Shown piece after piece: positions 1-62,900 of a DNA stretch of 64,000 bases. Source of the DNA: Litoditis marina (Eukaryota; Nematoda; Chromadorea; Rhabditida; Rhabditidae); the NCBI GenBank assembly GCA_964036275.1, contig CAXIWQ010000402.1, positions 1 to 64,000 of the forward strand, in the 5' to 3' direction. Both the position numbers and the translations under genes were made by a program. The stretch's first letter is position 1. Every line of letters begins with the position of its first letter. The notes beneath the pieces were generated by a model, which was not told the origin of the DNA, did not search any database, and saw only the letters and a program-made list of their open reading frames with translations.

Positions 1-721
1 ACATTTTCCCACGCCTCTCCTGATCGTCTAAATGATCGGAACGACTTGAAACTCATAGGACAGGACCAGTATTGAATAAAGATTGTACTGCCAAAGCATT
101 AAGGTCAAAGGTCAACTATTGATTTTTTTAGCGCATTAAATATGATTTTGGCCTAAAATTGCTATGGAAATAGATGTAACTTCAAACTTAGTGTTACTGT
201 ATTCCACTACTCATGAACAACTCAAAAAATCAAACACGGGATACATCGGAGAAAAATGAAACAAGTTACAGTAGTTTTAAGTTTCAAGATCAAACCATCA
301 ATTGATGACGTCACATACCAAGCATTTCACTAGCAAAAAAGTCAAGTTCTTTTTAATAGTTCCTCTTGGGCTCCAAGCTACTTCAAACCGTAGATCATAC
401 TCATAGGTGAAGACTATATGAATTCTAAGTAACGACGAGTAATATTCAGAAGGCTAGAAGACGTCAAATACAAACAATGCCATAGAGTGTTGAAACTCTC
501 AGAACAAGTACCATAAGTGACAAAGATGTCATGACGACAATGTTTCACGATGTAACGTCAACGGCACATAGGATTCTGAAGACCAGAAGACGTCACAACC
601 CAAGTTGTCATGGAACCAAAAAAGTTAATCTAAATAACTCTAAATGACTACACGCGTGGGGGGTCTGGGGGGTCTCCCCCCAGCTAGACGGGCACGCGGC
701 GTGAGCCGCGTGACCGGCTAG
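1..721 (+). mobile_element. Partial Helitron-like unit (3' part)
   Basis: This is the 3' end of a unit whose 5' part lies before the window. It carries the G-rich variant of the region before the terminal hairpin, with the CTGGGGGG-TCT-CCCCCCAG palindrome at 665-683, and ends at CTAG 718-721. Confidence 0.7.
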
Positions 722-2529
722 TCACCACCCTATAGATAATCGTGCTAAATGACGTAACGGTACGGTACGTGATCCATTTTTCAACGATAGACACTAACCA
801 GTATGACCATCAATTATGTCACTAAAATCTAAGGTCGTGGTGTCTAAGGAAAATCAATGCTATCGATTTATTGATTTTTAAGGCCTTAAGATGGAGAGCG
901 AATTTTCGGAGATACTCCATATGAAAGCCTGTATTCTGAAGCCAAATGTTTCCATCGAGCGCTTTTTGCCGAAACGTTCCCGGAAAGAGTTACATGAATT
1001 AGAAAAAAGTACAATATTTTGCTACTTTCATTCCTCATACCGCGTATGTTGTAGATATGACCGTAAAATTTTTGGCTGGTTGAACTCTCCAAAAGTCCCT
1101 TCTTTTGGATCAAAATCGTGGAAAATTTCGCAACTTCCTCCGGATTTGAGAAATATCCGGAACTTTTTGAGATTTCCGAACTGTTTTAAAATGGTCCTCA
1201 TCTTTCTATATTGTGGCACAAGATGTGTCATGACCTACTGAGTATACATTTGTAATATGAAAGATCAAAGATCAAGTATCGATTTTTGGTGATCTCCGTT
1301 ATGAAACATAGTACCTCATAAATAAGGCTATAAAAGAAGGTTCCCATGAACTATTTGTCTTCTAATTTCTACAGTGTATAGAGTTGATTGTCAGGTACTT
1401 AACTTCTTGAGCAATAAAACAATATATCATAGAACGGGTATTCTGTAAGCGTTGATAAAAATCAACAAAAAATTTCATTCATTTTGGTGGGGCACATGTT
1501 CAAAATGTGATTGAATCTCTGAGATTTGTGTATAAGATGCGCATGAAGAATTAAAACAATTTGTATGTGACAGATTTTTGAATTTCTCAAAAATAATTTT
1601 TTAAGACGGTTTTTTAGAAAAAAGTGAAACAGCAAAACTCATGCAGTATGACCCAAATTTTGTCCATAAACGAAGGTCAATAGACCGGCAAACATTCTTG
1701 AAAATTAAGCAAAACCATCCAGCCGTTCTCGAGTTATTCAAGTTTTAAAAGTCCAACCCGTACTATATACGGCGCAAATAGGCTCACTTTTAAGCTACCT
1801 CGGACTCAACATTTTCCCACGCCTCTCCTGATCGTCTAAATGATCGGAACGACTTGAAACTCATAGGACAGAACCAGTATTGAATAAAGATTGTACTGCC
1901 AGAGCATTAAGATCAAAGGTCAACTATTGATTTTTTTAGCGCAATAAATACGATTTTGGCTTAAAATCGTTATGGAGATAGATGTTATTTCAAATTTAAT
2001 GTCATTGTCTTTCACTACTCATGAACAACTCAAAAAGTCAAACACGGGACACATCGGAAAAAAATGAACCAAGTTACAGTAGTTTTAAGTTTCAAGATCA
2101 AACCATCAATTGATGACGTCACATACCAAGCATTTCACTAGCAAAAAAGTCCAGTTCTTTTTAATAGTTCTTCTTGGGCTCCAAGCTATTGCAAACCGTA
2201 GATCATACTCATAGGTGAAGACTATATGAATTCTAAGTAACGACGAGTAATATTCAGAAGGCTAGAAGACGTCAAATACAAACAATGTCATAGAGTATTG
2301 AAACTCTCAGAAAAATTACCATTAGTGACAACGATGTCATGACTATAATGTTTTACGATGTAACGTCAACGACACATAGGATTCTGAAGGCCAGAAGACG
2401 TCACGACTCAAGTTGTCATGGAACCAAAAAAGTTGATCTAAATAACTCTAAATGACTACACGCGTGGGGGGTCTGGGGGGTCTCCCCCCAGCTAGACGGG
2501 CACGCGGCGTGAGCCGCGTGACCGGCTAG
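722..2529 (+). mobile_element. Helitron-like unit 1 (G-rich variant)
   Basis: Unit of 1808 bp from TCACC to CTAG. It holds an open minus-strand 67-codon ORF (1028-1231) that recurs in several units, and ends with the G-rich palindrome and the GC-rich hairpin. Confidence 0.72.
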
Positions 2530-4349
2530 TCACCACCCTATACATAACTCGACTAAATGACGTGACGGGACGGTACGAGACCATGACCTGAACGATGAGC
2601 ACTAACCAGTATGACCATCAATTATGTCACTAAAATCTAAGGTCGTGGTGTCTAAGGAAAATCAATGATATTGATTTATTGATTTTTTAAGGCCTTAAGT
2701 TGGAGAGTGAAATTTCGGAGATACTGCACATGAAAGCCTGTATTCTGAAGACAAATGTTTCTGTCGAGCGCTTTTTGCCGGAAACGTTTCCGGAAACAGT
2801 TACATGAATTAGAAAAAAGTACAATTTTTTGCTACTTTCATTCCTCATACCGCGTATGTTGATGATATGACCTCAACCTTTCTGGCTGGTTGAACTCTCC
2901 AGAAGTCCCTTCTTTTGGCTCAATATCGTGGAAAATTTCGCAACTTCCTCCGGATTTGAGAAATTTCCGGAACTTTTCGAGATTTCCGAACTGTTTTAAA
3001 ATGGTCCTCATCTGTTCATATTGTGACACAAGATGTGTCATGACCTACTGAGTATAAGTCTGTAATATGAAAGATCAAAGATCAAGTATCGATTTTTGGT
3101 GATCTCCGTTATGAAACGTAGTACCTCATAAATGAGGCTACAAAAGAAGGTTCCCATGAACTATTTGTCCTCTAATTTTCATATTGTATAGAGTTGATTG
3201 TCAGGTATTTAACTCTATGAGCAGTAAACATTTCATCATATGATGGGTGTTCTGTGAGCATTGATAGAAGTCAACAAAAAATTTCATTCATTTCGGTGGG
3301 GCACATGTTCAAAATGTGATTGAATCTCTGAGATTTGTGAATAAGATGCGCATAAAAAATTGAAACAATTTGTATGTGACAGATTTTTGAATTTCTCAAA
3401 ATTAATTTTTTAAGACGTTTTTTTAGAAAAAAGTGAAACAACCAAACTCATGCAGTATGACCCAAATTTTGTCCATAGACGAAGGTCAGTAGACCGGCAA
3501 ACACTGTGTAAAATAAAGCAAAACCATTCAGCCGTTCTCGAGTTATTCAAGTTTTAAAAGTCCAACCCGTACTATATACGGCGCAAATAGGCTCACTTTT
3601 AAGCTACCTCGAACTCAACATTTTCCCACGCCTCCCCTGACCGTCTAAATGATGGGAACGACTTGAAACTTATAGGACAGGACCAGTATTGGATAAATAT
3701 TGTACTGCCAAAGCATCAAGGTCAAAGGTCAACTATTGATTTTTTTAGCGCAATAAATATGATTTTGGCCTAAAATTGCTATGGAAATAGATGTAACTTC
3801 AAACTTAGTGTCATTGTATTCCACTACTCATGAACAACTCAAAAAATGAAACACGGGATACATCGGAAAAAAATGAACCAAGTTACAGTAGTTTTAAAAT
3901 TCAAGATCAAACCATCAATTGATGACGTCACATACCAAGCATTTCACTAGCAAAAAAAGTCAAGTTCTTTTGAATTGTTCATTTCAAGCTTCAAGCTATT
4001 GTAAACCGTAGATCATATTCATACGTGAAGACTGTATGAATTCTAAGCAACGACGAGTAATATTCAGAATGTCAGAAGACGTCAGAAATGAACTTCGTTC
4101 AAACTTTCTGAAACTCTCAGAACAAGTAGGAAAGAATCCAAAAGTGTTACGATTACATTGTTTCACGAAGTGACGATCACGTCAGATAAGATTCTGAAGG
4201 CCAGAAGACGTCAAGTCGTCAAACTACTCGAAGCTGTTTGAAACGTTCAAAAAAAGTAAGTAACAAGGTAACAACTTTAAATAAAGGTGCAAAACATAGC
4301 TAACATGCACGCTAGACGGGCACGCGGCGTGAGCCGCGTGACCGGCTAG
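2530..4349 (+). mobile_element. Helitron-like unit 2 (AT-rich variant)
   Basis: Unit of 1820 bp. Instead of the G-rich palindrome, the 200 bases before the terminal hairpin have a different sequence (runs such as TTCAAAAAAAGTAAG, then ACATAGCTAACATGCACG). The recurring 67-codon minus-strand ORF is open at 2838-3041. Confidence 0.72.
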
Positions 4350-6158
4350 TCACCACCCTATACATAATTCGACTAACTGACGTGACGTAACGGTACGAGA
4401 CCCTGACCTGAACGATGATCACTAACTAGCATGACCATCAATTATGTCACTAAAATCTAAGGTCGCGGTGTCTAAGGAAAATCAATGTTATCGATTTATT
4501 GATTTTTTAAGGCCTTAAGTTGGAGAGCAAAATTTCGGAGATACTGCACATGAAAGCCTGTATTCTGAAGACAAATGTTTCCATCGAGCGCTTTTTGCCG
4601 GAAACGTTTCCGGAAACAGTTACATGAATTAGAAAAAAGTATAATTTTTTGCTATTTTCATTCCTCATACCGTCCATGTTGATGATATGACCTTAAAATT
4701 TCTGGCTGGTTGAACTCTCCAGAAGTCCCTTCTTTTGGCTCAATATCGTGGAAAATTTCGCAACTTCCTCCGGATTTGAGAAATTTCCGGAACTTTTTGA
4801 GATTTCCGAACTGTTTTAAAATGGTCCTCATCTGTTTATATTGTGGCACAAGATGTGTCATGACCTACTGAGTATACATTCGCAATATGAGAGATCAAAG
4901 ATCGAGTATCGATTTTTGGTGATCTCCGTCATGAAACATAGTACCTCATAAATAGGGCTACAAAAGAAGGTTCCCGTGAACTATTTGTTTTCTTATTGTT
5001 ATATTGTGTAGAATCGATTGTCAGGTACTCAACTTCATGAGCAATAAACATTCTATCATATACCGAGTGTTCTGTGAGCGTTGATAAAAATTAACAGAAA
5101 ATTTCATTCATTTCGGTGGGGCACATGTTCAAATTGTGATTGAATCTCTGAGATTTGAGTATAAGATGCGCATAAAGAATTGAAAAAGTTTGTATGTGAC
5201 AGATTTTTGAATTTCTCAAAAATAATTTTTTAAGACGTTTTTTTAGAAAAAAGTGAAACAGCCAAACTCATGCAGTATGACCCAAATTTTGTCCATAGAC
5301 GAAGGTCAATAGACCGGCAAATATTCTGAAAAAATAAGCAAAACCATCCAGCCGTTCTCGAGTTATTCAAGTTTTAAAAGTCCAACCCGTACTATATACG
5401 GCGCAAATAGGCTCACTTTTAAGCTACCTCGGACTCAACATTTTCCCACGCTTCTCCTGACCGTCTAAATGATCGGAACGACTTGAAACTCATAGGACAG
5501 GACCAGTATTGAATAAAGATTGTACTGCCAGAGCATTAAGGTCAAAGGTCAACTATTGATTTTTTTAGCGCAATAAACATGATTTTGTGCTAAAATTGCT
5601 ATGGAAATAGATGTAACTTCAAACTTAGTGTCATTGTATTTTACTACTCATGAACAACTCAAAAAATCAAACACGGGATACATCGGAGCAAAATGAACCA
5701 AGTTACAGTAGTTTTAAGTTTCAAGATCAAACCATCAATTGATGACGTCACATACCAAGCATTTCACTAGCAAAAAAGTCAAGTTCTTTTTAATAGTTCT
5801 TCTTGGGCTCCAAGCTATTGCAAACCGTAGATCATACTCATAGGTGAAGACTATATGAATTCTAAGTAACGACGAGTAATATTCAGAAGGCTAGAAGACG
5901 TCAAATACAAACAATGCCATAGAGTATTGAAACTCTCAGAACAGGTACCATTAGTGACAACGATGTCATGACAAGATTGTTCTATGATGTAACGTCAAAG
6001 ACACATAGGATTCTGAAGGCCAGAAGACGTCACGACCCAAGTTGTCATGGAACCAAAAAAAGTTATCTAAATAACTTGAAATGACTACACGCGTGGGGGG
6101 TCTGGGGGGTCTCCCCCCAGCTAGACGGGCACGCGGCGTGAGCCGCGTGACCGGCTAG
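4350..6158 (+). mobile_element. Helitron-like unit 3 (G-rich variant)
   Basis: Unit of 1809 bp with the G-rich palindrome before the terminal hairpin. The recurring minus-strand ORF is open at 4658-4861. Confidence 0.72.
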
Positions 6159-47200: not shown

Positions 47201-49933
47201 TTTCATTCGCGAGTAATTGCGAATACGAAGTTTCATTTACGAGTAATTGCAAATACAAAGTTTCATTTGCGAGTAGTTGTGAATAAGAAGTTTCATTTGC
47301 GAGTAATTGCGAATACGAAGTTTCATTTGCGAGTAATTGCGAATACGAAGTTTCATTTACGAGTAATTGCGAATACGAAGTTTCATTTGCGAGTAATTGT
47401 GAAAAAGAAGTTTTATTTGCGAGTAATTGCGAATACGAAGTTTCATTTGCGAGTAATTGCGAATACGAAGTTTCATTTGCGAGTAATTGCGAATACGAAG
47501 TTTCATTCGCGAGTAATTGCGAATACGAAGTTTCATTTACGAGTAATTGCGAATACGAAGTTTCATTTGCGAGTAATTGTGAATAAGAAATTTCATTTGC
47601 GAGTAATTGTGAATAAGAAGTTTCATTTGCGAGTAATTGCGAAAACGACGTTTCATTTGCGAATAATTGCAGAAACGAAGTTTTATTTGCAAGTACTTGC
47701 GAATACGAAGTTTTATTTGCGAGTAATTGCGAATACGGAGTTTGATTCGCGAGTAATTGCAAATACGAAGTTTCATTTGCGAGTAATTGCGAATACAAAG
47801 TTTCATTTGCGAGTAATTGCGAATACGACGTTTCATTTGCGAGTAATTGCAAATACGAAGTTTTATGTGCGAATACTTGCGAATACGAAGTTTCATTTGC
47901 GAGTAATTGCGAACGAGAAGTTTCATTTTTGAATAATTGCAAATACGAAGTTGCATTTGCGAGTAATTGCGAATACGATGTTTCCTTTGCGAATAATTGC
48001 GAATACGAAGTTTCATTTGCGAGTAATTGCGAATACGAAGTTTCATTTGCGAGTAATTGTGAATACGAAGTTTCATTTGCGAGTAATTGTGAATACGAAG
48101 TTTCATTTGCGAGTAATTGCGAATAAGAAGTTTCATTCGCGAGTAATTGCGAATATGAAGTTTTATTTGCGAGTAATTGCGAATACGGAGTTTCATTTGC
48201 GAGTAATTGCGAATACAAAGTTTCATTTGCGAGTAATTGCGAATACGAAGTTTCATTTACGAGTAATTGCGAATACGAAGTTTCATTTGCGAGTAATTGC
48301 AAATACGAAGTTTCATTTACGAGTAATTGCGAATACGGAGTTTCATTTGCGAGTAGTTGTGAATACGAAGTTTCATTTACGAGTGATTGCGAATACAAAG
48401 TTTCATTTGCGAGTAATTGTGAAAAAGAAGTTTTATTTGCGAGTAATTGCGAATACGAAGTTTCATTTGCGAGTAATTGCGAATACGAAGTTTCATTTGC
48501 GAGTAATTGCGAATACGAAGTTTCATTCGCGAGTAATTGCGAATACGAAGTTTCATTTACGAGTAATTGCGAATACGAAGTTTCATTTGCGAGTAATTGT
48601 GAATAAGAAATTTCATTTGCGAGTAATTGTGAATAAGAAGTTTCATTTGCGATTAATTGCGAAAACGACGTTTCATTTGCGAGTAATTGCAGAAACGAAG
48701 TTTTATTTGCAAGTACTTGCGAATACGAAGTTTTATTTGCGAGTAATTGCGAATACGGAGTTTGATTCGCGAGTAGTTGCAAATACGAAGTTTCATTTGC
48801 GAGTAATTGCGAATACAAAGTTTCATTTGCGAGTAATTGCGAATACGACGTTTCATTTGCGAGTAATTGCAAATACGACGTTTTATGTGCGAGTACTTGC
48901 GAATACGAAGTTTCATTTGCGAGTAATTGCGAATAAGAAGTTTCATTTACGAGTAATTGCGAATACGAAGTTTTATTTGCGAGTAATTGTGAACAAGAAG
49001 TTTCATTCGCGAGTAATTGTGAATAAGAAGTTTCATTTGCGAGTAATTGCGAATACGAAGTTTCATTTGCGAGTAACTGCAAATACGAAGTTTCATTTAC
49101 GAGTAATTGCGAATACGAAGTTTCATTTGCGAGTAATTGTGAAAAAGAAGTTTCATTTGCGAGTAATTGCGAAAACGAAGTTTCATTTGCGAGTAATTGC
49201 GAATACGAAGTTTCATTTGCGAGTAATTGCGAATACGAAGTTTCATTCGCGAGTAATTGCGAATACGAAGTTTCATTTGCGAGTAATTGTGAATAAGAGG
49301 TTTCATTTGCGAGTAATTGCGAATACGAAGTTTCATTCGCGAGTAATTGCGAATACGAAGTTTCATTTGCGAGTAATTGTGAATAAGAGGTTTCATTTGC
49401 GAGTAATTGCGAATACGAAGTTTCATTTGCGAGTAATTGCGAATACGAAGTTTCATTTGCGAGTAATTGCGAATACGAAGTTTCATTTACGAGTAATTGC
49501 GAATACGAAGTTTTATTTGCGAGTAATTGTGAACAAGAAGTTTCATTCGCGAGTAATTGTGAATAAAAAGTTTCATTTGCGAGTAATTGCGAATACGAAG
49601 TTTCATTTGCGAGTAATTGCGAATACGAAGTTTCATTTACGAGTAATTGCGAATACGAAGTTTCATTTGCGAGTAATTGTGAAAAAGAAGTTTCATTGCG
49701 AGTAATTGCGAAAACGAAGTTTCATTCGCGAGTAATTGCGAATACGAAGTTTCATTTGCGAGTAATTGCGAATACGAAGTTTCATTCGCGAGTAATTGCG
49801 AATACGAAGTTTCATTTACGAGTAATTGCGAATACGAAGTTTCATTCGCGAGTAATTGTGAATAAGAAGTTTCATTTGCGAGTAATTGCTAATACGAAGT
49901 TTCATTTGCGAGTAATTGTGAATACGAAGTTTT
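29263..49933 (+). repeat. 30-bp satellite array, forward orientation (about 690 copies)
   Basis: Continuous 30-bp units with consensus GCGAGTAATTGCGAATACGA-AGTTTCATTT; common variants are TTTACGAG, AATTGTGAATAAG, AATACGGAG and AATTGCAAATAC. Occasional 29- and 31-base units shift the phase (for example near 29968, 35624, 38323, 42131, 44118). Larger blocks are themselves duplicated (see findings). Because 30 is a multiple of three, and four of the six frames of the consensus lack a stop, very long spurious ORFs arise. It ends precisely at the LTR at 49934. Confidence 0.97.
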
Positions 49934-50241
49934 GAAAGGTTAGCTCCTTTTAGCATCTAAAGCCCCGAGGAACTCCATGAAAGGTTAGAGGTGGGTCCGG
50001 TTTAGGACTCCTCGCCTTTACTGGTGAAACCCCCAAACTTGTGAGTAAACATCTCTTTTGGAGAGCAATTAGACAATATGTTGACATTGACAAAACTACA
50101 GCAGAGGTGCCGGTGGGAAAGTAGAGTCACTCTGAATGACTCTCGGCACCCTGCTTACCATTATGGGGTGTTTCTGGTGTAGCGGTAATATTTTATAATG
50201 TGCGGTACGTCCTTATAACAGTTACCAGGGTTGTATGCAAT

Positions 50242-50247
50242 TTTATT
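50242..50247 (-). promoter_or_regulatory. LTR polyadenylation signal
   Basis: AATAAA on the minus strand, about 840 bases into the LTR and downstream of the TATA box, as expected for the R region. Confidence 0.35.
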
Positions 50248-50980
50248 ATTATAAGCAATTGGACCGTTGTTGACACTCAAATAACAATGTAATATAATGT
50301 CTGTAATATTCAAATCATGACCTAAACATGGTAGCTCGTGCCTATGAAAGATAGATAGAATACTCTGTATGTGGGCGTCAAAGGACATAGACAAAGTTGG
50401 GTCATTAAAGATCAAGGCGAATATATAATAATACTGACGGAATGAAAGTGTGTTGACCCAGGATATGAGGGGGATTGATAGAGAGGATAGAGAGATGTAG
50501 AGAGTGCCCTACAGTGTTATAGATTGTAGAGTAGGCAGAAGGTCAGAGAAATATTACGTAGAGGGTGTCAATAACGGTCAGCTATCTATAGAGCAGACTA
50601 CGAATAAATATGTGGGATATATGATTTAAACTACGGGTTTTATAGTTGATACAATTATGATGACTACTGTGATAACAATTGTGATAACTATTGTAAATGC
50701 TTGTGATTTATATTGTACATAGACTAGATTGTGACATGTAATTTAAGTTAATATATGATTGTATGTTCTATGAAAGATGAATGTTATTATCTGAGTGTGA
50801 TGTGAATATCTAACCTAGAAGTGAAGCGAAGCGAACTATTAAAGCATGTTGAATCTAACAATTATATATGAAACGAGGGAGATGAAAGGTGAGATTAATA
50901 TAAAGTACAAACGAGATCAAAAGGTTAGTAAACAAGTGGGTAGCATGCCCAGACCGGTCCCGAGTTGTCGTTCCGTGCTG

Positions 50981-50987
50981 TTTTATA
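50981..50987 (-). promoter_or_regulatory. LTR TATA box
   Basis: TATAAAA on the minus strand, about 100 bases into the LTR, in the context CCAGTATAAAACAGC. It is a plausible U3 promoter element. Confidence 0.4.
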
Positions 50988-51085
50988 CTGGTAACTCGCA
51001 GCTGTTCCGGGGGCGAGTTGTTGACGCTTCTCGAATCTTCCTAGGTAGGCTATTTTGAGGTCACTCATGAGTCAGGAATCTCACA

Positions 51086-51097
51086 TCCCCCCTCTTC
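51086..51097 (-). promoter_or_regulatory. Polypurine tract
   Basis: On the minus strand GAAGAGGGGGGA runs directly into TGTGAG, the start of the LTR. A purine-only tract at this place primes plus-strand DNA synthesis in LTR retrotransposons. Confidence 0.6.
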
Positions 51098-51166
51098 GAC
51101 AAGCTGAGGTCTCCGAGGCCATAATTTCTATGTATTCTGATTCCTGACGTAGTTCCACTTTGTAAT

Positions 51167-51172
51167 TTTATT
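51167..51172 (-). promoter_or_regulatory. AATAAA signal after the 51280-51960 gene
   Basis: On the minus strand, AATAAA stands about 110 bases after the stop codon and before the polypurine tract. Confidence 0.35.
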
Positions 51173-51279
51173 TGTTTAATACCTTTCTGTTTTACTCGTC
51201 GTTGTACCAATTATTTACATAACTAAATAATCTTCATTCTTTCTAATTCTATTTCCTATTATGTTACACAAGTTTAATA

Positions 51280-51960
51280 TCAATATCCTTCTGGGCTGTT
51301 CTTGGTCCCTAGCTTTTTGACGTCTTTTCCTGGTCCTGCTTGTGCCGTTACTGATGGTTCCCAGAAGATGGGGGCGTTGCGCGGCGACTTCAGGTTTTCC
51401 TTGTCCTCTTCTCTAATTCTCAGTAGTAGTATACTCGTGGAAGTTGATCCTTCTATGGCTCTTTCGATTTGAAACGGTAGGTGGCGGTCCTTTGTGCTGC
51501 TTACCATTGAGATATCTCCCATTCTGAGAAAGTCGAGGTGTCCGATCTTAAATGCGTTGTGTCCTCTCTCCATCTCTTCTCCAATCATTTCCACATTAAC
51601 TCCGTTCTCGAATCCGTTGGTGTAGATTTCCAGGTATATTTTCTCTTTATACAACCGAAATACTGTTTTTCTTGCTCCTTTCTGGAGTAGTTGGCGTAAC
51701 ACTGCGTATTCCCATTGATGGTTCGTGAACGGACTTCTTAGTTTGCACGATTCGTAGATGGTGTCTGTTCTCATCATGTCCCTCAGACTTATGTGGTCCC
51801 ACAAGATTGCACGAATTGATTCCATTAAGTACGTCGTCTCTCCCGATATCATCGTGTAACCAAACGCGTATCGGAATGGTCCATGTGCTCGTTCGATTAT
51901 TTTTACATAATCTCCGGTAGTGGGATTCATTCCGATTTGGTCGGTTCCTGAAAAATTCAT
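51280..51960 (-). CDS. Accessory protein, sense copy 2 of a four-member unknown family (226 residues)
   Basis: An uninterrupted ORF that starts at ATG 51960 (MNFSGTDQIG) and ends at 51280; an AATAAA follows on the same strand at 51167-51172. No known family was recognised. Shared landmarks with the three other copies are a helical stretch (YAVLRQLLQKGARK), a strand pair KIYLEIYTNGFENGVNVEM, a Gly/Leu element IGHLDFLRMGDISMVS, a Pro a few residues later, and a C-terminal strand ILLLRI before IFWEP. The N-terminal 95 residues are specific to this copy. It sits between the sense copy at 52138-52772 and the LTR. The TTTTTCAG just after the ATG could instead be an acceptor of an upstream exon. Confidence 0.6.
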   Translation of the reverse strand: MNFSGTDQIGMNPTTGDYVKIIERAHGPFRYAFGYTMISGETTYLMESIRAILWDHISLRDMMRTDTIYESCKLRSPFTNHQWEYAVLRQLLQKGARKTVFRLYKEKIYLEIYTNGFENGVNVEMIGEEMERGHNAFKIGHLDFLRMGDISMVSSTKDRHLPFQIERAIEGSTSTSILLLRIREEDKENLKSPRNAPIFWEPSVTAQAGPGKDVKKLGTKNSPEGY

Positions 51961-52093
51961 GTTTCGAACCACTTATTTCTCATTCTGTTGTTGTTCCTCA
52001 CGCCGTGCGCGTATTCATGATTTTCTCTCATATAATTTCTGATCATGTTGTATTTTCCCATTCTTTTTGGACACTGTACAGCTCTATCTAATC

Positions 52094-52099
52094 TTTATT
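52094..52099 (-). promoter_or_regulatory. AATAAA signal after the 52138 stop
   Basis: Minus-strand AATAAA about 40 bases downstream of the stop. It implies that the copy at 51280-51960 is a separate transcription unit or is expressed from the LTR transcript. Confidence 0.35.
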
Positions 52100-52137
52100 C
52101 CATTTCCTAGTTAACATAACGTTTTTGTTGTCTTTTC

Positions 52138-53562
52138 TTATTTCCATCGTCTGTGCTGTGCGCCGCTTCCTAGTCCGACTCGAACCGCTGATGCCTTCTG
52201 GTTGCTTGCCAGTATCATCGGATGCCATATTGCTGCCGTCATCGTAGGATTTTTCCATAATTCTTCTTGTTGTGCTTTCTTGAATCCCAGAAGGGTTATT
52301 GATTCTATCTTCGCGATTCGAATTGTCTTCATGATAGCTGGTGGAATTTCATCGGTGAAAGTTGCTGCCGCGATCACAACGTCTCCCAGTCTTAGATGGC
52401 CTAAACCGCTGATAAGGAACTGGTGGAGGTGTTCGTGTTTTGTTACCGCACCGTTTCCACGCAGGGTGCACTGGATACCATTTGTAAAACGAGCATTGAA
52501 TAGCTCTACGTCGATCGTCTTCGTTCCGTTCACGTAGAACACCGTCTTCTTGTTGTTGTATAGCACCATTTCCCTCAAGAAGGCGTTTTCCCACGCACTT
52601 TTTCCATAGACACCTCGATTTTCTTCGGGTTTGCACAGTTGCTCTTGCTCCAACATAGTCAGCACGTCTGGACTGGCTACTATGGCCCTTCTAGTAGCCG
52701 CTTTTGCTGCTGCCAGTTCTGCCTCGGCGCAGCTCCATAGATGGAAAAATGGTTCTTCCGCTTGACTTCCCCCTGTAATTCTAGGTCGTTCTACTTCCTG
52801 TCAGTACTATTTTATTAATTCTATAACCTGTTGTATTTTGATTTTCGTACCACTGTCCGTTGTGTGTTGTACTCTGTTTTCTCTTTTTCTTCTGATAAAA
52901 CACTTTTGTCTAACTACAACCTTTATTCGTTCGAGACAATGATACATCATTACACAGTTCTACAATTTTAATCCCTTCTACTGTTCTATCATTTACCAAC
53001 CTAATTATCACCATTTTTGCTGGCATAGCGCTTCACAGTGGTTCGAGCGTTTGCAAAAGCTGCAGTATGCGTTTTGTCCACACTGATGGCCCGGTAAGTA
53101 TGGTTCTAGACATTTTGAACAACGTTTCAGTAAACCGACAATTCTATTTACTTTTTCCTCAAGCGTTCCTCCTTTTTGACAGAGGTTGGTGTTATGTTCT
53201 TGAGCGCATAGGAGACAAACTACACGATTCGCTGGTGGAGGAGCAATTTGCACAATTTGCGGAATTTGTACTCTGTGTGGAATGCGAAAGTTTGAATCAA
53301 AACGGGGTCGCTCTTGAAATTCTCTCAAGTTTTTGGCCTTCCAGTATTGTTTTCTGTCTTCACGTTCCTCTCGTTCTCTCTCCAGTCTTCTCTCTCTTCT
53401 TTCTTTTCTTTCACGTTCTTTTCTTTCCTCGCGTCTGCGTTCCTTTTCCTTTCTCCGCTCTTCTTCTGCTTCTGAGGTTGCTGCCCTTTTATTATGTTTT
53501 CTGACTTCCTCACCATCATTTTTCGGTAGTTCCTCATCTCCGTTCACTTGCTTCTGTCCCAT
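52138..53562 (-). CDS. Gag-like zinc-knuckle protein spliced towards sense copy 1 of the unknown family (frame break at the junction)
   Basis: Exon 53562-53012 starts MGQKQVNGDEE, has a long Arg/Glu/Lys-rich charged helix (about residues 30-85), then three knuckles: CLLCAQEHNTNLC, CSKCLEPYLPGHQC and CSFCKRSNHCEALC. This arrangement is typical of retrotransposon Gag nucleocapsid regions, especially of BEL/Pao type, and would bind nucleic acid. A donor (TG|GTGATAA) and an acceptor (AATTACAG at 52773) lead to exon 52772-52138 (211 residues), which carries the unknown domain (TKTIDVELFNARFTNG, ISGLGHLRLGDVVI, SITLLGF, AIWHP). The two reading frames differ by one base, next to a run of five G (769-773 in 52769-52773), so either the run length is wrong, or the gene is broken, or they are separate genes. 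AATAAA follows at 52094-52099. Confidence 0.5.
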
Positions 53563-53859
53563 GTTGGAGGCGCTTCCATTTTTCCCTGAAGAAAATATAT
53601 TAGCACTTCATACAGCCGACTTTAGTCTGTAATTTGCGTAATAATCTGTTTTCCTCAACGCCCTGTCCAAATTACAGTTTCACATTCCGTGTTTGATCTT
53701 TTTATCCAACGCCCTGACTCTGTTTACAGCCGATTTGTTTACGGATTTGAACTTTTATTTGTTGTTGTTGACTTGTGGCAAATAATTATCATGTTTCCTA
53801 TTTGTGTTATTTCTTCGTCTGACTGTATTTCTGATTTTTCCTTTTTCCAGTTTCCGGAG

Positions 53860-54483
53860 ATGAGGGTCGCCATTCATAAGTGTTCGGTTTTCAATTTCTG
53901 CTCCAATCGCGGATTGTGTTTCTACGAAGTTCTTCAAAATATTCTCTCGTGTGTCTGTCCTGATGGGTGGAGTGGTTCCTCCTGTGAAGTCGAAGCTTCC
54001 AGCCATCCTGCTGTTGTTGCCAGTTATTCTTGGTTTCACCTTCTTCTGGTGATTTTCGGTACGTCGATTTTCTGTTCAGTACATTTGTCTTGGCAGCTTT
54101 TATTTATGCGTATTTTGCTTAGATTTTGCGAAAGTTCTCCCTTTTTGGAGGCAAAATCGTATAATTTCTCTCATCACAACCGGTTTTCCCTTTTGTTCCG
54201 CTTGTCCTGTCTTTTCGCCGCTGTCCTCTGTCTAGTGTAGTTGGACCTTGGACATGTTATTGTGTTTGTCAGGAGTTCTACTTTCTTTTTTTCAGTGTGT
54301 TTTCTTTCAGGTATCTTACTGGTGGTCGCTATCCTCGCGTACTGGTACTTCTGTCGTAAGGTTCCTGGATCCGTGGTTCCTCTTGTTTTCCGAGACGGAT
54401 GGCGTGCACTTGGTACCTGCTTCCGCAAATCTTCTGACTCCTCGGTTCCCAAGGATCCTGAGGTGGGAACCGGTGTTCAGTGA
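53860..54483 (+). CDS. Small single-pass membrane protein with one EGF-like domain (antisense to the retrotransposon)
   Basis: Two exons, 53860-54058 and 54311-54483, join in phase 1 (donor G|GTACGT, acceptor TTTCTTTCAG) to give 123 residues. Residues about 8-38 hold six cysteines spaced C-x5-C-x5-C-x10-C-x-C-x8-C, including CVCPDGWSGSSC, a textbook EGF pattern. A hydrophobic segment (LLLVIFGILLVVAILAYWYF), split by the intron, is followed by CRK as a stop-transfer signal and a Ser/Pro-rich tail. No signal peptide follows the chosen ATG. The frame is open upstream to 53689 with a hydrophobic stretch, and an acceptor (TTTTTCCAG) lies at 53850, so a 5' exon may be missing. Codon choice looks like a real nematode gene. 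Weak alternative: a hydrophilic minus-strand reading is also open here. Confidence 0.55.
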
Positions 54484-54725
54484 TCAGACATGTTGTGTTC
54501 ATCGGTAGCTATGTGTCTTGTATTTCCTATTTTCTGAGTTCTCTCTCTGTCTGCTGTCTGGTCTCTTCAGCTTCCTTTGCTTCTCTTTTCTTCTATATTT
54601 CTTACCTTGTTCTGTCTTTGTGTTTTATTGTTTTTCTTGACGACCTCGTGTTGTTCGTATTTGTTGACTTGTATGTTGTACTTGTTGTTGATGTTGATTT
54701 ATTGAGCGTGAATTCGTGTTGCTGC

Positions 54726-54731
54726 AATAAA
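54726..54731 (+). promoter_or_regulatory. AATAAA signal of the EGF-like gene
   Basis: Plus-strand AATAAA about 240 bases after the TGA at 54481-54483. Confidence 0.4.
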
Positions 54732-55328
54732 CTGTATTCTTAACTTCTTGTGTGTGCCTTATCCCAGGTTTTCTACCTGTATTCTTACTTCTTCTTGTTT
54801 TTACTCTCTATTTTCGCGTGTTTTCCGACTTATTTAACGGCTTAACCTGCATTTTCTATTAGGTTTGATCAGCTTCACCAGGAACGGAGGATTTTCTTTC
54901 TATTTTCCTGTAATTCTTTTTGGTCTTCCGGGCTATTTTCAATTTTTATTTTGAAAATCGTCTGTGCCGCGAGATTCCTGCCTTTCTCCGTTTAACCAAC
55001 CTTTTGTTTTGCTGGAATGCGGTTGGTATGTGGTTTGAGGGGGACCCAGTGTGTCCGCCAGGTATGGTTCATCGCGGACTTGTGTCGATGTGTCGGATTC
55101 CTGCTGTTCTTCGTCTCGGTTGCTCATCTGTAATATCAGTCTTCTATACACGTCATGAATTATTCCTTTAAATACATAGGAAGTTCTTCCCAATAGTTTC
55201 TGTTCGTGCAGCTTATAGTTTCCCTGTTTCCGCTAGTCTTTGATTTGTTAGCGGCTCGCAATGCAACTGTTCCTGCGTTTGTTCCCTGCCTCTGGTGGGA
55301 TCTTTTTTCCTTGGTTTCTCCTAGTATT
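54732..55328. other. Spacer between antisense genes, with a possible minus-strand 5' exon
   Basis: T-rich on the plus strand. On the minus strand, 55127-55001 could encode a hydrophilic first exon (MSNRDEEQQESDTS..., donor AAAAG|GTTGG in phase 1) that would join in frame to the acceptor before 53590, upstream of the zinc-knuckle exon. That would place the EGF-like gene inside its intron. Support is only phase and composition. Confidence 0.25.
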
Positions 55329-56081
55329 ATGGCTGACGACACTGATTCCGATCTTCCCGACGTAGTTGCGGAGTTTCCTACTCCCAACTATCGTCAGCTT
55401 CATGTCAACCTACTGTTCTCCTTTCCTGCCATGAGGGAATTAGTATTTGATCGTCTTAATATGGACAGCAATCACGTGCGGGAACTTCTGTTCAACGCAT
55501 TCATAGGTAAATTTCTTCGCCCTTCGTTGTGTTTCGTTGTTTCGATGCCTTTGGTTCCCTTTATTGAGTTTTCGCTTATTCTAGCTCATGCTTGTCGTGA
55601 TGAAATTTCCTTGCTGGAGATCTACCTTCCGGATTATGATGCCCCATTCCTGGCGTATACAGTGGACAACAGGCGATATGTGATTTCATTTTTAAATATT
55701 AGTGGTAATGTCATGTTGATTGGTTCTTTTGCCGCGCGTTTTAGACCGGAGGGTGTTTGGTGTTTGGGTGCTGGCGTCATCTCTTGCCGTTTCCGTCAAG
55801 TAAATATTTATTGCCAGGACCGAGAGGTTCCTTGGCCAGTTTTTACTGCGTTAAGTCACCACACCGTTGAGGCCATGCGCCTCGAGGGCACGGAGTGGAC
55901 CCCCGAGTTGAGCGATGATTATCCATTGTTCACACCTGTAGTTGTACCCACTTGTCGTCGTCGTTTTACTGTGGCGTTCCAGACTCTGCACGTAAACTCG
56001 CACTCGACTTTTGTTCATGTTTCCCACGCTACTTCTGCCCTGATGTTTAGGTTATTGATCTTGGTTGTTTCCTTTTGGTGA
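55329..56081 (+). CDS. Antisense copy 1 of the unknown accessory family (224 residues)
   Basis: Exon 1 55329-55506 (178 bases, ATG to ATA G), donor G|GTAAATTTC, intron of 78 bases, acceptor TTATTCTAG, exon 2 55585-56081 ending TGA. The acidic start MADDTDSDLPDVVAEF is followed by a helical part (VRELLFNAFI), then LLEIYLPDYDAPFLAYTV, VWCLGAGVISCRFRQVNI, a Pro-containing loop (REVPWPVF) and a C-terminal hydrophobic end. The first intron has the same phase and exon 1 the same length as in the copy at 56459, which supports both models. The intron is a multiple of three without stops, so a retained-intron reading is also open. No function can be given. Confidence 0.6.
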   Translation: MADDTDSDLPDVVAEFPTPNYRQLHVNLLFSFPAMRELVFDRLNMDSNHVRELLFNAFIGKFLRPSLCFVVSMPLVPFIEFSLILAHACRDEISLLEIYLPDYDAPFLAYTVDNRRYVISFLNISGNVMLIGSFAARFRPEGVWCLGAGVISCRFRQVNIYCQDREVPWPVFTALSHHTVEAMRLEGTEWTPELSDDYPLFTPVVVPTCRRRFTVAFQTLHVNSHSTFVHVSHATSALMFRLLILVVSFW

Positions 56082-56458
56082 AATGAATGAATGTTACTGT
56101 TGTTCCGTGTTTTCCTTGGTTTGAAAAAACAAATGTATCCATTCACCTTGTGATATTCTACGAAGACGATAATTTTTGTCCGTTAACGCGTTTGGAATGT
56201 TGGAATGATTCTACTTCTCTGAACTTGCTGAGTTCCCGACAGATGCCAAAATCAGTGTTCTTTTTTATTTCCTAATCTTCTATCGTCTGTCGGTCTTGTT
56301 CTTATTTATGATGGAGAAGGTGTTACACCCGGTAATCTCTGGCACCGAGCTGCCTGCTCATTAATCTACCGTAATCCCGTGTTTTCCTCTGTTGATTTCT
56401 TCTTCGTAGGTTTTCCTTAACAGTTGTTTCTTTATTTCCACTTTCATCTTACCGGAGT
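56082..56458 (+). other. Spacer between the two antisense copies with possible family remnants
   Basis: Two short readings, around 56130-56220 (SIHLVIFYEDDNFCPLTRL) and 56290-56375 (VGLVLIYDGEGVTPGNLW), resemble each other and the C-terminal strand-plus-Trp part of the family. They may be relics of a further copy. No complete gene is supported. Confidence 0.3.
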
Positions 56459-57256
56459 ATGGGTGAACAGCTTCCTCGTCTTATTCCATCTCTTTGGCGA
56501 AACCCCCCAACTCAAATCTCGTTTTCGTCGACTGCTGTTATTAAATCTTTATTTCGGTCATTCCCTACTCTTGACGAGTATGCACCGAGCGAGCTTGAAG
56601 ATATCAATCTGGAGACGTTGAAAAATTGTTTTCTGGGTAATTTTTTTCCTTTGTTTCATGTACGGTTTGTGACACTTTTGTTTTCAAAGTCTCTTTACGT
56701 TTCGAACTCGTGTACTGAGTACTGCTTTACCCCTGGAAATTTCCTATTTTTTTCAACCGTTTCCTTCACTTCCTGATTCTGTAGGAGTTTTGTTGTAGGT
56801 GCGGTCGAGCGGAAACAGATTGTTCGTCTCGAGATATTTCTGCCACTCGGTGGTTATCCGTTCATGTCTTTTGTGATCTCTGGTGTTCGTTATTATTTGC
56901 CGCTGATGGCGGATGATGGACACGTGATGGACTGGAGGGGATCAGACGCCTTCTCTGAGCAGCCTTGGTGTTTAGGTTTGGGGGCCGGTCTTCTTGAATT
57001 TACCATTCCTCAGATTATTGTTCGATCTCAGGACTTTTCTGTTCCGGTACCCTTGTACCTTCTGTATAGTTTCCAATTTCTGCATTATGATAGTTTGATC
57101 TTTGAAAATGTGTATTTACCCCCCGAATGGGTCCGTCCCTTTGCTGATATTGCACCTGAAGTGCTCCCGTTATCGGATGATCGCTTCAGGCAATATCAGA
57201 CATCTTCAAGCATTGGTAACTTTTGCCGCTGGGCATTCTCATCGTATTTTCCTTGA
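56459..57256 (+). CDS. Antisense copy 2 of the unknown accessory family (211 residues)
   Basis: Exon 1 56459-56636 (178 bases), donor G|GTAATTTT, intron of 162 bases, acceptor TTGTTGTAG, exon 2 56799-57256 ending TGA. Landmarks: helical SELEDINLETLKNCFL, then RLEIFLPLGGYPFMSFVI, PWCLGLGAGLLEFTIPQIIV, FSVPVPLY and YLPPEWVRPF. It aligns along its length with the copy at 55329-56081 (for example WCLGLGAG against WCLGAGVI). An alternative splice at 57215 (G|GTAACTT) to 57313 would give another C-terminus; an AATAAA stands at 57396-57401. The gene converges on the integrase end of pol, 210 bases away. Confidence 0.6.
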
Positions 57257-57395
57257 GTGTTTCATTTACATGTATGGTTGCTGGTTGCTGGATCTGCTGT
57301 TTGTTTTGCTAGTTTATAACCTTCTTCCCTTATTTGCGTCTACATGTTATATGTTAGTTCTACCTCGACGCGTACTGCCAACTATATTGAATTTA

Positions 57396-57401
57396 AATAA
57401 A
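57396..57401 (+). promoter_or_regulatory. AATAAA signal of antisense copy 2
   Basis: Plus-strand AATAAA 140 bases after the TGA at 57254-57256, just before the convergent end of pol at 57466. Confidence 0.45.
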
Positions 57402-57465
57402 TGTTATATTTTCAAAGCTGACTAGGATTACTATCTCTTTACATTCTACGCTCTATCCTGTTTGA

Positions 57466-59916
57466 CTATACGATTTCGGAAAACTTACGCACTTGGTTAG
57501 AGTGCATTGTTTTGAGTTTTCCTTTTCCATCTCGTACGGTCAAGTTAGGATAGTCGGTTGCCATTACAATGTGTGGCTCGCTATAATGTGGCGATATCTT
57601 GTTGATTCTGTTCAATTTTATTACCACCTTCTCACCTACTGTGAACGTAGAGAATTTTGTACGATTTCGCGTGTCGTAGTATTTCTTTTGTACTACCTGT
57701 GCTTGCTCAATTCGTTCTCTAGTGTAGTCCCAAGCATGGTGTAAGTTGATTTTTAATTGCTCAAGATAGTCTTCTTCATTAAAGAATTTTCTTATAGGGA
57801 TGTCCAGGGCTATGGTGAATGGAGAATTTGGATGCCGTCCATGCATGAGGTAAAACGGTGAGTTGTTGGTTGAAGAATGTGTGGCTGAGTTGTATGCGTG
57901 TGTCAATAGTTGGATTTTTTCATCCCAATCATCGCGTCCTTTCTTTGCGTCATTTGCAATCAAATTTTCCAGTGTTTTGTTGAAACGTTCCACTAATCCA
58001 TTCGCTTGGTGATGATACGGCGTGCTCATGTCATGTCGAATGCCCAGTAGCGCCATTGATTTTTCAAATGTATCACTAGTGAAACATGGACCCATGTCAG
58101 TAACAATAATTTCTGGTGTGCCAAATCGTCCTACTAGTCTGTCCGCAATTAATTTCATAGTTGCTGGTGCTTTTTGGTCTGGCGATGGTTCTGCCATCGC
58201 AAATTTAGTGAAAGCATCTACCATAACCAAAATGTTCTTATTGCCTTTTAATGACTGTGGGAGTGGTCCAATATAATCCATGTGTACTCTTTGCATAGGT
58301 CTCGTAGGTACTTCAAAATGTTGAAGAGGCTCGCAATTTCTGTAAACCCCAGGGTCTTTTACAAGTTGACATGATTTGCAATTATTGATTACTACGCGTA
58401 CATCTTCCTTCATAATTCCCCATGTTATGAAATTTGCAAGGACGGATCTAGTCTTATTGATACCTAAATGTGCTGAACCAAATTTCGACTCATGGATATC
58501 TTGAATAATATCAAACTTTAGTTTTGAAGCGTCTGGCAAAACGATTTGATTCTTTTCCGTTCGTTTTTCTGGAATTTTGTACAAAATATCTTCTAGCACA
58601 ATGTATTCTTCGTCTTCGTCTATTTTCTGCTGCGTTTCTATTCGTGTTATTATTTCAGATATCCACTGGCAGTTCTTCTGTTCGCTACGGATGTCGTCTT
58701 TGGTTATTCCTGTGGAAAAGAAAGGGTCCGCCACAGTTATGGCCGCTACCAGAGTCAGAGGAGGAGTCTTTTCTGGTAAGTGTCTACTTAGAGCGTCACA
58801 AACTTGATTTGCTTTCCCTGGTCGGTATTGAATATCGATTTCGTATTCTTGTAGAACGAGTTGGTATCTGCTTAGGCGGGAATTTAGGTCTTTTCTGTAC
58901 ATTAACGATTTTAGTGGTGAGTGATCGGTGATCATTGTACACTTTGCTCCGTCTATGTATGGTCGAAATTTCTTAACTGCAAAGACCAAAGCTAACGCTT
59001 CTAGTTCTATAGCGGGGTACCTTGATTCATGTTTGTTTAGAGTTCTGCTAGCGTATGCAATAACTCGTAAATCTTTATCAGTCCCTTGCTTTAAAACTGC
59101 CGCCACGCCTAGTCCTGACGCGTCTGTTTCTATTACAAATGGTTCTCCCATTCTTGGTGCGGTCAAAATAGGTGCTGTAACTAGGGCCCTTTTTAATGCT
59201 CGGAATCCTTCTTCGCATTTCGGCGTCCAAACGAAAGGCGTGTTTTTCTTCGTTAGTTCTATAATTGGGGCTGCAAATTGGGCATAACCTGGTACAAATC
59301 TTCTAAAGAATGATGTAACTCCTAAAAATGCTCGCACATCTGTGACAGTTTTCGGTTCGGGATATAAATCAATAGCTTTTGTTTTCTCCGGGTTTGGTTG
59401 AATTCCCTTCTCACTTAGTACGAACCCTAGAAATTTCAATTTTTCCCGAATTCGCATTTGCTGGCTTTCAATTTCATTCCAATTCCTTCAATTTTCCCTA
59501 AAACTTTGTCAATGTCGGTCAAGTGATCCTCAGTAGTTTCTGATTGTTACTATTAAATCATCAATATAAATGAAAACTCGTGCCCGGATGGTTTTTGCTA
59601 ACGTGTTCATTATTTGTTGAAAACTTAGAGGGCTTCCTTTCAGACCCATAGGCATCATGTTGTACTCAAATTGTCCTAGGAAACATGCGAATGCTGTTCT
59701 CTCAATATGTTTCTCTTCAACTGGGATTTGATGAAAACCTGACTGGAAATCCATAGTTGCATATACTTTTTTATTTGCGCAGAGATCAACTATGTCCTGT
59801 ATGTTGGGAATTATTGATTGTGCACATCTTGTGATTAAATTCAGTGATCGAAAATCCGTAGTAAATCTCCATGACTTTTTATCCGCTTTACGAACTAACA
59901 CTATGGGTGCGCTGAA
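57466..59916 (-). pseudogene. pol: Ty3/Gypsy-type pol fragment: reverse transcriptase (5'-truncated), RNase H, integrase
   Basis: The minus-strand reading begins inside RT at the satellite edge with SAPIVLVRKADKKSW and goes through FTTDFRSLN, ATMDFQSGFHQ and the catalytic YIDD. RNase H shows TDASGLG, AIELEALALVFAV, TDHSPLKSL and CDALSR. The integrase has the His/Cys zinc region (IHESKFGSAHLG, NCKSCQ) and the D,D,E set in HMDYIGPL, VTDMGPCF and VERFNKTL, followed by a normal C-terminal part to 57466. There are two frame changes, near 59548 (just after YIDDLIVT) and near 59455 (after KCEF), of opposite sign; the 90 bases between remain readable in the third frame. Gag, protease and the first part of RT are missing. 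The domain order RT-RNaseH-IN is that of Ty3/Gypsy elements. It is not functional as it stands. Confidence 0.9.
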
Positions 59917-62900
59917 AATACGGAGTTTGATTTGCGAGTAATTGCGAATACGAAGTTTTATTTGCGAGTAATTGCGAATACGGAGTTTCATTTGCGAGTA
60001 ATTGCGAATAAGAAGTTTCATTCGCGAGTAATTGCAAATACGAAGTTTCATTTGCGAGTAATTGCGAATACAAAGTTTTATTTGCGAGTAATTGCGAATA
60101 CTGAGTTTGATTTGCGAGTAATTGCGAATACGAAGTTTCATTTGCGAGTAATTGCGAATTCGAAGTTTTATTTGCGAGTAATTGCGAATACGGAGTTTGA
60201 TTTCCGAGTAATTGCGAATACCAAATTTTATTTGCGAGTAATTGCGAATACGGAGTTTGATTTGCGAGTAATTGCGAATACGAAGTTTTATTTGCGAGTA
60301 ATTGCGAATACGGAGTTTCATTTGCGAGTAATTGCGAATAAGAAGTTTCATTCGCGAGTAATTGCAAATACGAAGTTTCATTTGCGAGTAATTGCGAATA
60401 CAAAGTTTTATTTGCGAGTAATTGCGAATACTGAGTTTGATTTGCGAGTAATTGCGAATACGAAGTTTCATTTGCGAGTAATTGCGAATACGAAGTTTTA
60501 TTTGCGAGTAATTGCGAATACGGAGTTTGATTTCCGAGTAATTGCGAATACCAAACTTTATTTGCGAGTAATTGCGAATACGGAGTTTGATTTGCGAGTA
60601 ATTGCGAATACGAAGTTTCATTCGCGAGTAATTGCAAATACTAAGTTTTATTTGCGAGTAATTGCGAATACGAAGTTTCATTTGCGAGTAATTGCGAATA
60701 CGAAGTTTCATTTGCGAGTAATTGCGAATAAGAAGTTTCATTCGCGAGTAATTGCAAATACGAAGTTTCATTTGCGAGTAATTGCGAATACGAAGTTTTA
60801 TTTGCGAGTAATTGCGAATACGGAGTTTGATTTGCGAGTAATTGCGAATACGAAGTTTCAATTGCGAGTAATTGCGGAAACGAAGTTTCATTTGCGAGTA
60901 ATTGCGAATAAGAAGTTTCATTCGCGAGTAATTGCGAATACGAAGTTTTATTTGCGAGTAATTGCGAAAACGACGTTTCATTTGCGAGTAATTGCAAAAA
61001 CGAAGTTTTATTTGCAAGTACTTGCGAATACGAAGTTTCATTTGCGAGTAATTGCGAATAAGAAGTTTCATTTGCGAGTTTCATTTGCGAGTAATTGCGA
61101 ATACGAAGTTTCATTTGCGAGTAATTGCGAATACGAAGTTTCATTTGCGAGTAATTGCGAATAAGAAGTTTCATTCGCGAGTAATTGCGAATACGAAGTT
61201 TTATTTGCGAGTAATTGCGAATACGAAGTTTTATTTGCGAGTAATTGCGAATACGGAGTTTCATTTGCGAGTAATTGCGAATAAGAAGTTTCATTCGCGA
61301 GTAATTGCGAATACGAAGTTTTATTTGCGAGTAATTGTGAATAAGAGGTTTCATTTGCGAGTAATTGCAAATACGAAGTTTCATTTGCGAGTAATTGCGA
61401 ATACGAAGTTTCATTTGCGAGTAATTGCGAATACGATGTTTCATTTGCGAGTAATTGTGAATAAGAAGTTTCATTTGCGAGTAATTGCGAATACGACGTT
61501 TCATTTGCGAGTAATTTCTAATACGAAGTTTTATTTGCGAGTACTTGCGAATACGAAGTTTCATTTGAGAGTAATTGCGAATAAGAAGTTTCATTTGCGA
61601 GTAATTGCGAATCCGAAGTTTCATTTGCGAGTAATTGCGAATACGAAGTTTTATTTGCGAGTAATTGTGAATAAGAGGTTTCATTTGCGAGTAATTGCGA
61701 ATACGAAGTTTCATTTACGAGTAATTGCGAATACGAAGTTTCATTTGCGAGTAATTGTGAATAAGAAGTTTCATTTGCGAGTAATTGCGAATACGAAGTT
61801 TCATTTGCGAGTAGTTGCGAATACGAAGTTTCATTTGCGAGTAATTGCGAATACGAAGTTTCATTTACGAGTAATTGCGAATACGAAGTTTTATTTGCGA
61901 GTAATTGTGAATAAGAGGTTTCATTTGCGAGTAATTGCGAATACGAAGTTTTATTCGCGAGTAATTGCGAATGAGAAGTTTCATTTGCGAGTAATTGCGA
62001 ATACGAACATTTATTCGCGAGTAATTGCGAAAACGACGTTTCATTTGCGAGTAATTGCAAATACGAAGTTTTATTCGCGAGTAATTGCGAATACGAAGTT
62101 TCATTTGCGAGTAATTGTGAAAAAGAAGTTTCATTCGCGAGTAATTGCGAATAAGAAGTTTCATTTGCGAGTAATTGTGAATAAGAAGTTTCATTTGCGA
62201 GTACTTGCGAATACGAAGTTTAATTTGCGAGTAATTGCGAATACGAAGTTTCATTTGCGAGTAATTGCGAATACGAAGTTTAATTTGCGAGTAATTGCGA
62301 ATACGAAGTTTCATTTGCGATTAATTGCGAATACGAAGTTTCATTTGCAAGTACTTGCGAATACGAAGTTTCATTTGCGAGTAATTGCGAATAAGAAGTT
62401 TCATTTGCGAGTTTCATTTGCGAGTAATTGCGAATACGAAGTTTCATTTGCGAGTAATTGCGAATAAGAAGTTTCATTCGCGAGTAATTGCGAATACGAA
62501 GTTTTATTTGCGAGTAATTGCGAAAACGACGTTTCATTTGCGAGTAATTGCAAAAACGAAGTTTTATTTGCAAGTACTTGCGAATACGAAGTTTCATTTG
62601 CGAGTAATTGCGAATAAGAAGTTTCATTTGCGAGTTTCATTTGCGAGTAATTGCGAATACGAAGTTTCATTTGCGAGTAATTGCGAATACGAAGTTTCAT
62701 TTGCGAGTAATTGCGAATAAGAAGTTTCATTCGCGAGTAATTGCGAATACGAAGTTTTATTCGCGAGTAATTGCGAATACGAAGTTTTATTTGCGAGTAA
62801 TTGCGAATACGGAGTTTCATTTGCGAGTAATTGCGAATAAGAAGTTTCATACGCGAGTAATTGCGAATACGAAGTTTTATTTGCAAGTAATTGTGAATAA

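Follow-up and report, generated by a model that had tools for sequence, protein, structure and literature searches.

Sense and antisense accessory genes between integrase and the 3' long terminal repeat of a Ty3/Gypsy-type element in the nematode Litoditis marina

A 64,000-nucleotide stretch of the Litoditis marina genome (assembly GCA_964036275.1, contig CAXIWQ010000402.1, positions 1 to 64,000; this whole stretch is called the window here) carries an element of the Ty3/Gypsy lineage in which accessory genes lie on both strands between integrase and the 3' long terminal repeat (LTR). Three are sense open reading frames (ORFs), i.e. a zinc-finger gene, A2 and A1, and three are antisense genes: B1, B2 and a gene for a protein with an epidermal growth factor domain and a transmembrane helix (EGF-TM). 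The preferred reading, to which a probability of about 0.5 is given, is that of an ambisense accessory region whose spliced sense proteins likely act like CERV of the Caenorhabditis elegans element Cer1. The parts of this reading are of unequal strength; the anatomy described below is very probably correct, and the CERV-like function, drawn from analogy, is put forward tentatively. The searches covered the genome of 522 contigs and 261.8 Mb, in which contigs are cited as C and a number (the window is C410:1-64000) and loci that were read as L and a number.

The element is on the minus strand, in the order reverse transcriptase (RT) fragment, RNase H and integrase, accessory region and 3' LTR. 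The pol ORF (57466..59487), whose RNase H and integrase are preceded by the end of the RT region, yields the Pfam domains RT_RNaseH (1.9e-35), Integrase_H2C2 (8.2e-12) and rve (1.6e-14) in that order; RNase H before integrase in a single ORF, together with a TG..CA LTR (49933..51085, minus, 1,153 bp) and an adjacent polypurine tract (GAAGAGGGGGGA on the minus strand, 51086..51097), identifies a Ty3/Gypsy element. The best named pol relatives, among the best 120 of 1637 matches, are from nematodes: Cylicocyclus nassatus (54-61% over 43-45% of the query), Heligmosomoides polygyrus (53%), Oesophagostomum dentatum (51%) and Caenorhabditis japonica (44-46%). The window copy is without its 5' half, since a 30-bp satellite that starts at about 59915 cuts the RT fragment (59530..59914, minus) and replaces all that would lie upstream of RT. 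This satellite, which also adjoins the outer end of the LTR, occupies the contig between about 27400 and the last base, 98,666, with the exception of 49901-59900; no second LTR or gag was found for the window copy, the remaining contig (64001-98666) being satellite. LTR pairs with gag belonging to the same LTR family are present elsewhere in the genome, where the LTR query 49934-51087 has 12 other matches, each 480 bp or longer, at 77-97% identity. An Rfam search of 49900-59930 gave no match.

Evidence for splicing of the sense RNA comes from a second locus at C4:21.069-21.073 Mb, in which LTR, A1, A2 and the zinc-finger gene are colinear with the window at 91-94% DNA identity. The C4 copy is without window bases 53586-55000 (minus strand, 1,415 bases, GT..AG), with minus-strand borders G/GTTGG and TTTTCTTCAG/GG, the slash marking the joint. 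In the zinc-finger gene 55127-55001 is spliced to 53585-53008: exon 3 (55001..55127, minus) follows the acceptor ATTACAG, begins ATGAGC and ends in phase 1, and exon 4 (53008..53585, minus), behind the acceptor TTTTCTTCAG, encodes a charged coiled-coil-like stretch and a Cys/His-rich C terminus. Upstream of exon 3 the C4 copy matches two separate exons on C21 (29924-30188 and 33535-33716) that are 3.3 kb apart and have the donors AAAAG/GTACGA and ATG/GTTAGT and the acceptor TTCCAG/ATG. The copy thus reads leader, acidic exon 2 and exon 3, then zinc-finger gene, A2, A1 and LTR, with three introns missing at GT-AG sites and a sole irregularity, about one inserted base and one change, at the joint of exons 3 and 4. 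Because the introns are absent exactly at GT-AG sites, the copy was most likely reverse-transcribed from a spliced sense RNA; because its 3' LTR is complete and the initial 29 bases of an LTR stand at its start, reverse transcription of the LTR type is the best account. Exons 2, 3 and 4 keep one frame into the zinc-finger protein, with exon 2 taken from C21 and exons 3 and 4 from the window.

The sense genes A1 (51280..51947, minus) and A2 (52138..52797, minus) are paralogues (E 4e-9). The A2 exon starts after the acceptor ACTGACAG in phase 0 and so matches exon 2, which is 180 bases long, has an ATG at its first base and ends in phase 0; the A1 exon starts after TTTTTCAG in phase 1 and matches the phase in which exon 3 ends. 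It appears that A2 and A1 would be produced by alternative use of acceptors, with an acidic N terminus supplied by the shared exons. More distant A genes also adjoin zinc-finger sequences, at C3:21.12, C4:10.13 and C1:8.46 Mb. A-like sequence is in addition found in L032 (C17:12620001-12630000), where six tandem 835-bp copies of an A1-like gene with stops (559-5371; 70% and 63% protein identity in two frames) lie near an oppositely oriented integrase-B2 piece, and the distant A/zinc-finger locus on C4 is adjoined by an array of five near-identical ORFs (HFHEVFFFFYFS...; L038, C4:10122001-10132000, 726-5977), four of them at a spacing of about 920 bp.

In Cer1, a Gypsy/Ty3 element, the mRNA for CERV is spliced and its final exon sits behind TTTCAG in the region between pol and the 3' LTR, and the export of genomic RNA requires CERV, according to the cited parts of PMC10309623; the spliced Cer1 mRNA occurs with and without the spliced leader SL1 (PMC3315495, in part). 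The Litoditis element resembles Cer1, as far as the cited parts of these sources describe it, in being a nematode Gypsy element with a spliced mRNA whose 5' exons are followed by a final exon located between pol and the 3' LTR, as the retrocopy on C4 indicates for the zinc-finger gene; an acceptor TTTCAG and a possible Cys finger in CERV are paralleled by acceptor-like sites and a zinc-finger protein (PMC10309623, PMC3315495). Since the anatomy is of the same kind, export or handling of RNA would be the likeliest role for the zinc-finger protein and, less confidently, for A1 and A2; these spliced sense proteins would help unspliced element RNA to exit the nucleus. In place of the open-ended list of functions given by the first-pass annotation (particle assembly, host evasion, germline expression), a more specific RNA-export model is thereby offered by analogy to Cer1. 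Unlike Cer1, for which the cited parts describe one such protein, the window element has three sense ORFs and three antisense genes, and the likeness drawn here is one of gene layout. An antisense gene is not described for Cer1 in the cited text, where the word "antisense" is absent from PMC10309623 and occurs once, for a probe control, in PMC3315495.

The three antisense genes would be transcribed from the opposite strand, with introns predicted from splice sites and reading frames. One of them, EGF-TM (53860..54483, plus; exons 53860-54058 and 54311-54483, predicted intron 54059-54310), lies wholly inside the sense intron 53586..55000. It encodes 123 residues with an EGF domain (Cys spacing 5,5,10,1,8; Pfam PF00008 at 21.5 bits, at the cut-off), a predicted transmembrane helix that is completed across the predicted intron, and a tail. 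The protein is predicted to sit in the membrane with the EGF end outside and a cysteine/basic tail, and would act at the surface of the cell or the particle. This gene, the sense zinc-finger gene and the missing 5' half of the copy are additions to the first-pass annotation.

Seven lineages were read after integrase: the window, L044 (63% pol identity), L045 (62%), L046 (55%), L047 (two pieces, 63% and 47%, with L051 a second copy of the family), L050 (58%) and L052 (40%). An antisense EGF-type gene is present in six of the seven, the window counted, with a Cys spacing of 5,5,8-10,1,8 and a Met that precedes the first Cys by 6-9 residues; in the same six this Met has an acceptor-like site 2-19 nt upstream and a candidate donor 187-208 nt downstream. 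The Pfam EGF match is above the cut-off only in L046 and has E 0.91 in L044; L045, L047 and L050 give no match, though their Cys spacing agrees. A zinc-finger gene follows EGF-TM in five of these six lineages, and in L046 a basic RGG-like ORF stands in its place. Neither EGF nor zinc-finger gene, nor any gene of the X family described below, was found in the 3.8 kb read of the most distant lineage, L052, among ORFs of at least 70 residues or shorter ones with a Cys pattern.

The antisense pair B1 (55329..56081, plus; exons 55329-55506 and 55585-56081; 224 residues) and B2 (56459..57256, plus; exons 56459-56636 and 56799-57256; 211 residues) are paralogues (E 4e-7) with predicted introns of 78 and 162 bases; CTCCTAG stands 4 bases upstream of the B1 ATG. 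The integrase end and B2 recur at C17:12.628 Mb on the same opposed strands, with the B2 intron sequence retained. Much of what the first-pass annotation saw here is borne out. Its two sense and two antisense genes between integrase and the 3' LTR are real genes, of which A1, A2 and B2 exon 2 are under constraint in the copies compared (Ka/Ks, the ratio of nonsynonymous to synonymous change, is given below); the first exon of 178 bases and the phase-1 intron are indeed common to B1 and B2; and membership in an LTR element, which it proposed, agrees with the colinear C4 copy and with the joint recurrence of B2 and integrase on C17. Its suggestion that antisense genes keep introns through retrotransposition fits the loss of the sense introns from the C4 copy and the retention of the B2 intron on C17. 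The proteins are also unrecognised, as it stated: no Pfam match to A or B passes the cut-off, the PDB gives nothing for A at E <=5 and for B one match that is not significant (E 0.51), and for A the protein database holds nothing at E 1e-3. Its observation is thus partly confirmed and its interpretation partly supported. By elimination, B1 and B2 are most likely a second, independently acquired regulator pair; this assignment is the weakest step of the explanation.

Two related elements, L044 and L047, each carry two further sense ORFs, X1 and X2, that are related to one another (E 4e-5 to 1e-36). X genes are placed directly after integrase (L044 and L047) and after the zinc-finger gene (L044), which are the places of B and A. 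With L044 X2 as the query, 39 matches were obtained at E <=10 and 26 of them at <=1e-3, counting the query itself and several pieces of one locus; ten stretches were fetched. Sequence comparison links X to neither A nor B (1/60 permutations for A-X and 4/60 for B-X); there is a weak hint that A may be related to X. X has no Pfam match above the cut-off, and an F-box-associated or leucine-rich fold that had been judged by eye was dropped, Pfam giving it no support. L45X1 and the L050 ORF 717-1250 resemble X by eye only, L45X1 alone being without a significant match. The protein database holds one match for X, an unnamed metagenome protein of 147 residues from a 592-base contig. This sole match is near-identical to a piece of an ORF in L062 (C1:7204300-7205200, 87-899, minus) that carries two X domains in tandem.

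Between the copies that were compared Ka/Ks is well below 1, at 0.28 for A1, 0.37 for A2, 0.22 for zinc-finger exon 4 and 0.23 for B2 exon 2 (151 codons), the pol 3' end having been left out with 7 codons aligned. Starts of accessory genes are also enriched in acceptor-like sites, defined as at least 4 of 7 matches to TTTTCAG: 17 of 20 starts have one within 20 nt, versus 257 of the 1069 ATGs in the same stretches; the starts scored include those of two nearly duplicate X genes, and a part of the start codons was picked by hand. Spliced-leader addition or alternative cis-splicing would give such an enrichment.

Several observations weigh against this account. The B2 ATG and one X start (L057) are without an acceptor-like site and B1 scores 3/7, and the EGF-TM donors were chosen among several candidates. 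The comparison of L047 with L051 gives Ka/Ks values of 0.54 (EGF exon) and 0.74 (zinc-finger gene), which rest on few changes and are not clearly below 1. Exon 2 at C21 sits in an ORF that ends soon after, at L049:416, and may or may not be in the gag frame, as the 5' coding exons of a CERV-type protein would be. The C4 copy is dead, with a stop in A1 and a zinc-finger frame broken by frame changes; it has lost the greater part of its 5' LTR, and no target-site duplication was seen. Structure prediction, which the first-pass annotation proposed as a check of fold agreement, failed to provide one: AlphaFold with the window sequences only gave useless models, with a confidence (pLDDT) of 31.9 for A1 and A2 and 33.7 for B1 and B2.

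The first-pass annotation had taken A and B as four copies of one family, and a form of this idea in which one family was duplicated and partly inverted, so that the B genes are A-type genes flipped to the other strand, is judged unlikely. None of phmmer, hmmsearch, hhalign with permutations and Smith-Waterman shuffles detected significant similarity between A and B; by the tests run these are two families of two, and a single four-copy family cannot be shown. It is similarly improbable that the A and B proteins oppose host silencing, e.g. small-RNA or nuclear RNA interference factors, instead of moving RNA. Element lineages have diverged strongly and close copies are under purifying selection, each element has several paralogues, and relatives outside this genome are nearly absent (none for A, the one metagenome protein for X), all of which would suit such a role; however, no sequence feature points to a silencing target, and the Ka/Ks values give no sign of positive selection.

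An origin of the antisense genes in another mobile element, or in host genes that were invaded by the LTR element, is very improbable. Such an origin would explain the opposite strand and the introns, and no pol match lies near the distant A and zinc-finger copies at C3:21.12 and C4:10.13 Mb (among the 66 of 342 candidates that were scored). Yet EGF-TM is antisense between integrase and the zinc-finger gene (the basic RGG-like one in L046) in 6/7 lineages, B2 has moved with the integrase end to C17, and the window EGF-TM gene is contained fully within the sense intron of the element. The ambisense accessory region with CERV-like sense proteins is retained as the preferred reading. An extended form of it, considered rather doubtful, would be a truly ambisense genome. 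In it gag-env-pol would be translated from the unspliced sense RNA and several CERV/Rev-like export proteins from spliced sense RNAs; the antisense strand would give mRNAs, spliced separately, for the second regulator pair and for a single-pass surface protein with an N-terminal EGF domain and without signal peptide. This EGF protein, whose gene keeps its place across the lineage, would serve as the element's own ligand for cell attachment or signalling.

HBZ is an antisense gene of the human T-cell leukaemia virus (HTLV), and the Litoditis element is like it in that a reverse-transcribing element has an antisense gene, a likeness of arrangement. Antisense genes of HTLV are noted in the cited part of PMC11963269, as are plant Gypsy elements of the Retand type, in which antisense ORFs, mostly with a TRP28 domain, lie between pol and the 3' LTR. 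Retand and the window element share a long region between pol and the 3' LTR with antisense coding, which most Retand copies keep (PMC11963269, in part) and which here consists of B1, B2 and EGF-TM. Unlike Retand, the window element alternates sense and antisense genes, has predicted introns and one EGF-TM product, and its scanned proteins have no Pfam match to TRP28. On the cited parts of these sources, antisense ORFs between pol and the 3' LTR (Retand) and a spliced accessory protein (Cer1) are known already and their combination here appears to be new; no such gene set appears in titles or abstract openings among the matches listed from the open-licence PMC literature. The region makes testable the export of unspliced RNA by nematode elements and the presence of regular, intron-bearing antisense genes in LTR elements. 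A conserved antisense EGF membrane gene, together with a seeming viral fusion glycoprotein in the lineage, would bear on infectious nematode retroviruses, present or recent.

An env-like part seemingly lies between gag and protease in L049 (C21:33400-34900, 523-1500, plus), L064 (C18, 1320-3023, plus) and L036 (C1, 8210-9043, minus); such an order, gag-env-pol, would be unusual. In the L049 ORF, residues 8-60 give a Pfam match to Monjiviricetes_fusion at E 1.3e-4 and 20.5 bits, below the cut-off of 27; behind them come a transmembrane-like helix, a PTAPP motif and, last, the protease. Judged by eye, L064 and L036 have gag-like sequence with a stretch resembling a signal peptide after it. Two other LTR pairs (C3:14381503-14392837 and C18:5402033-5418027; L063 and L064) had been expected to carry A or B. 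In the stretches read just before their second LTR, gag and protease are followed immediately by the polypurine tract, and the matches listed there include none to pol, A or B; both pairs are apparently non-autonomous derivatives. The 30-bp satellite touches two elements of the clade: it meets the window element at both ends (49933 and about 59915), and in the C146 element (L050, 3581-3801) it lies in the stretch after the zinc-finger gene.

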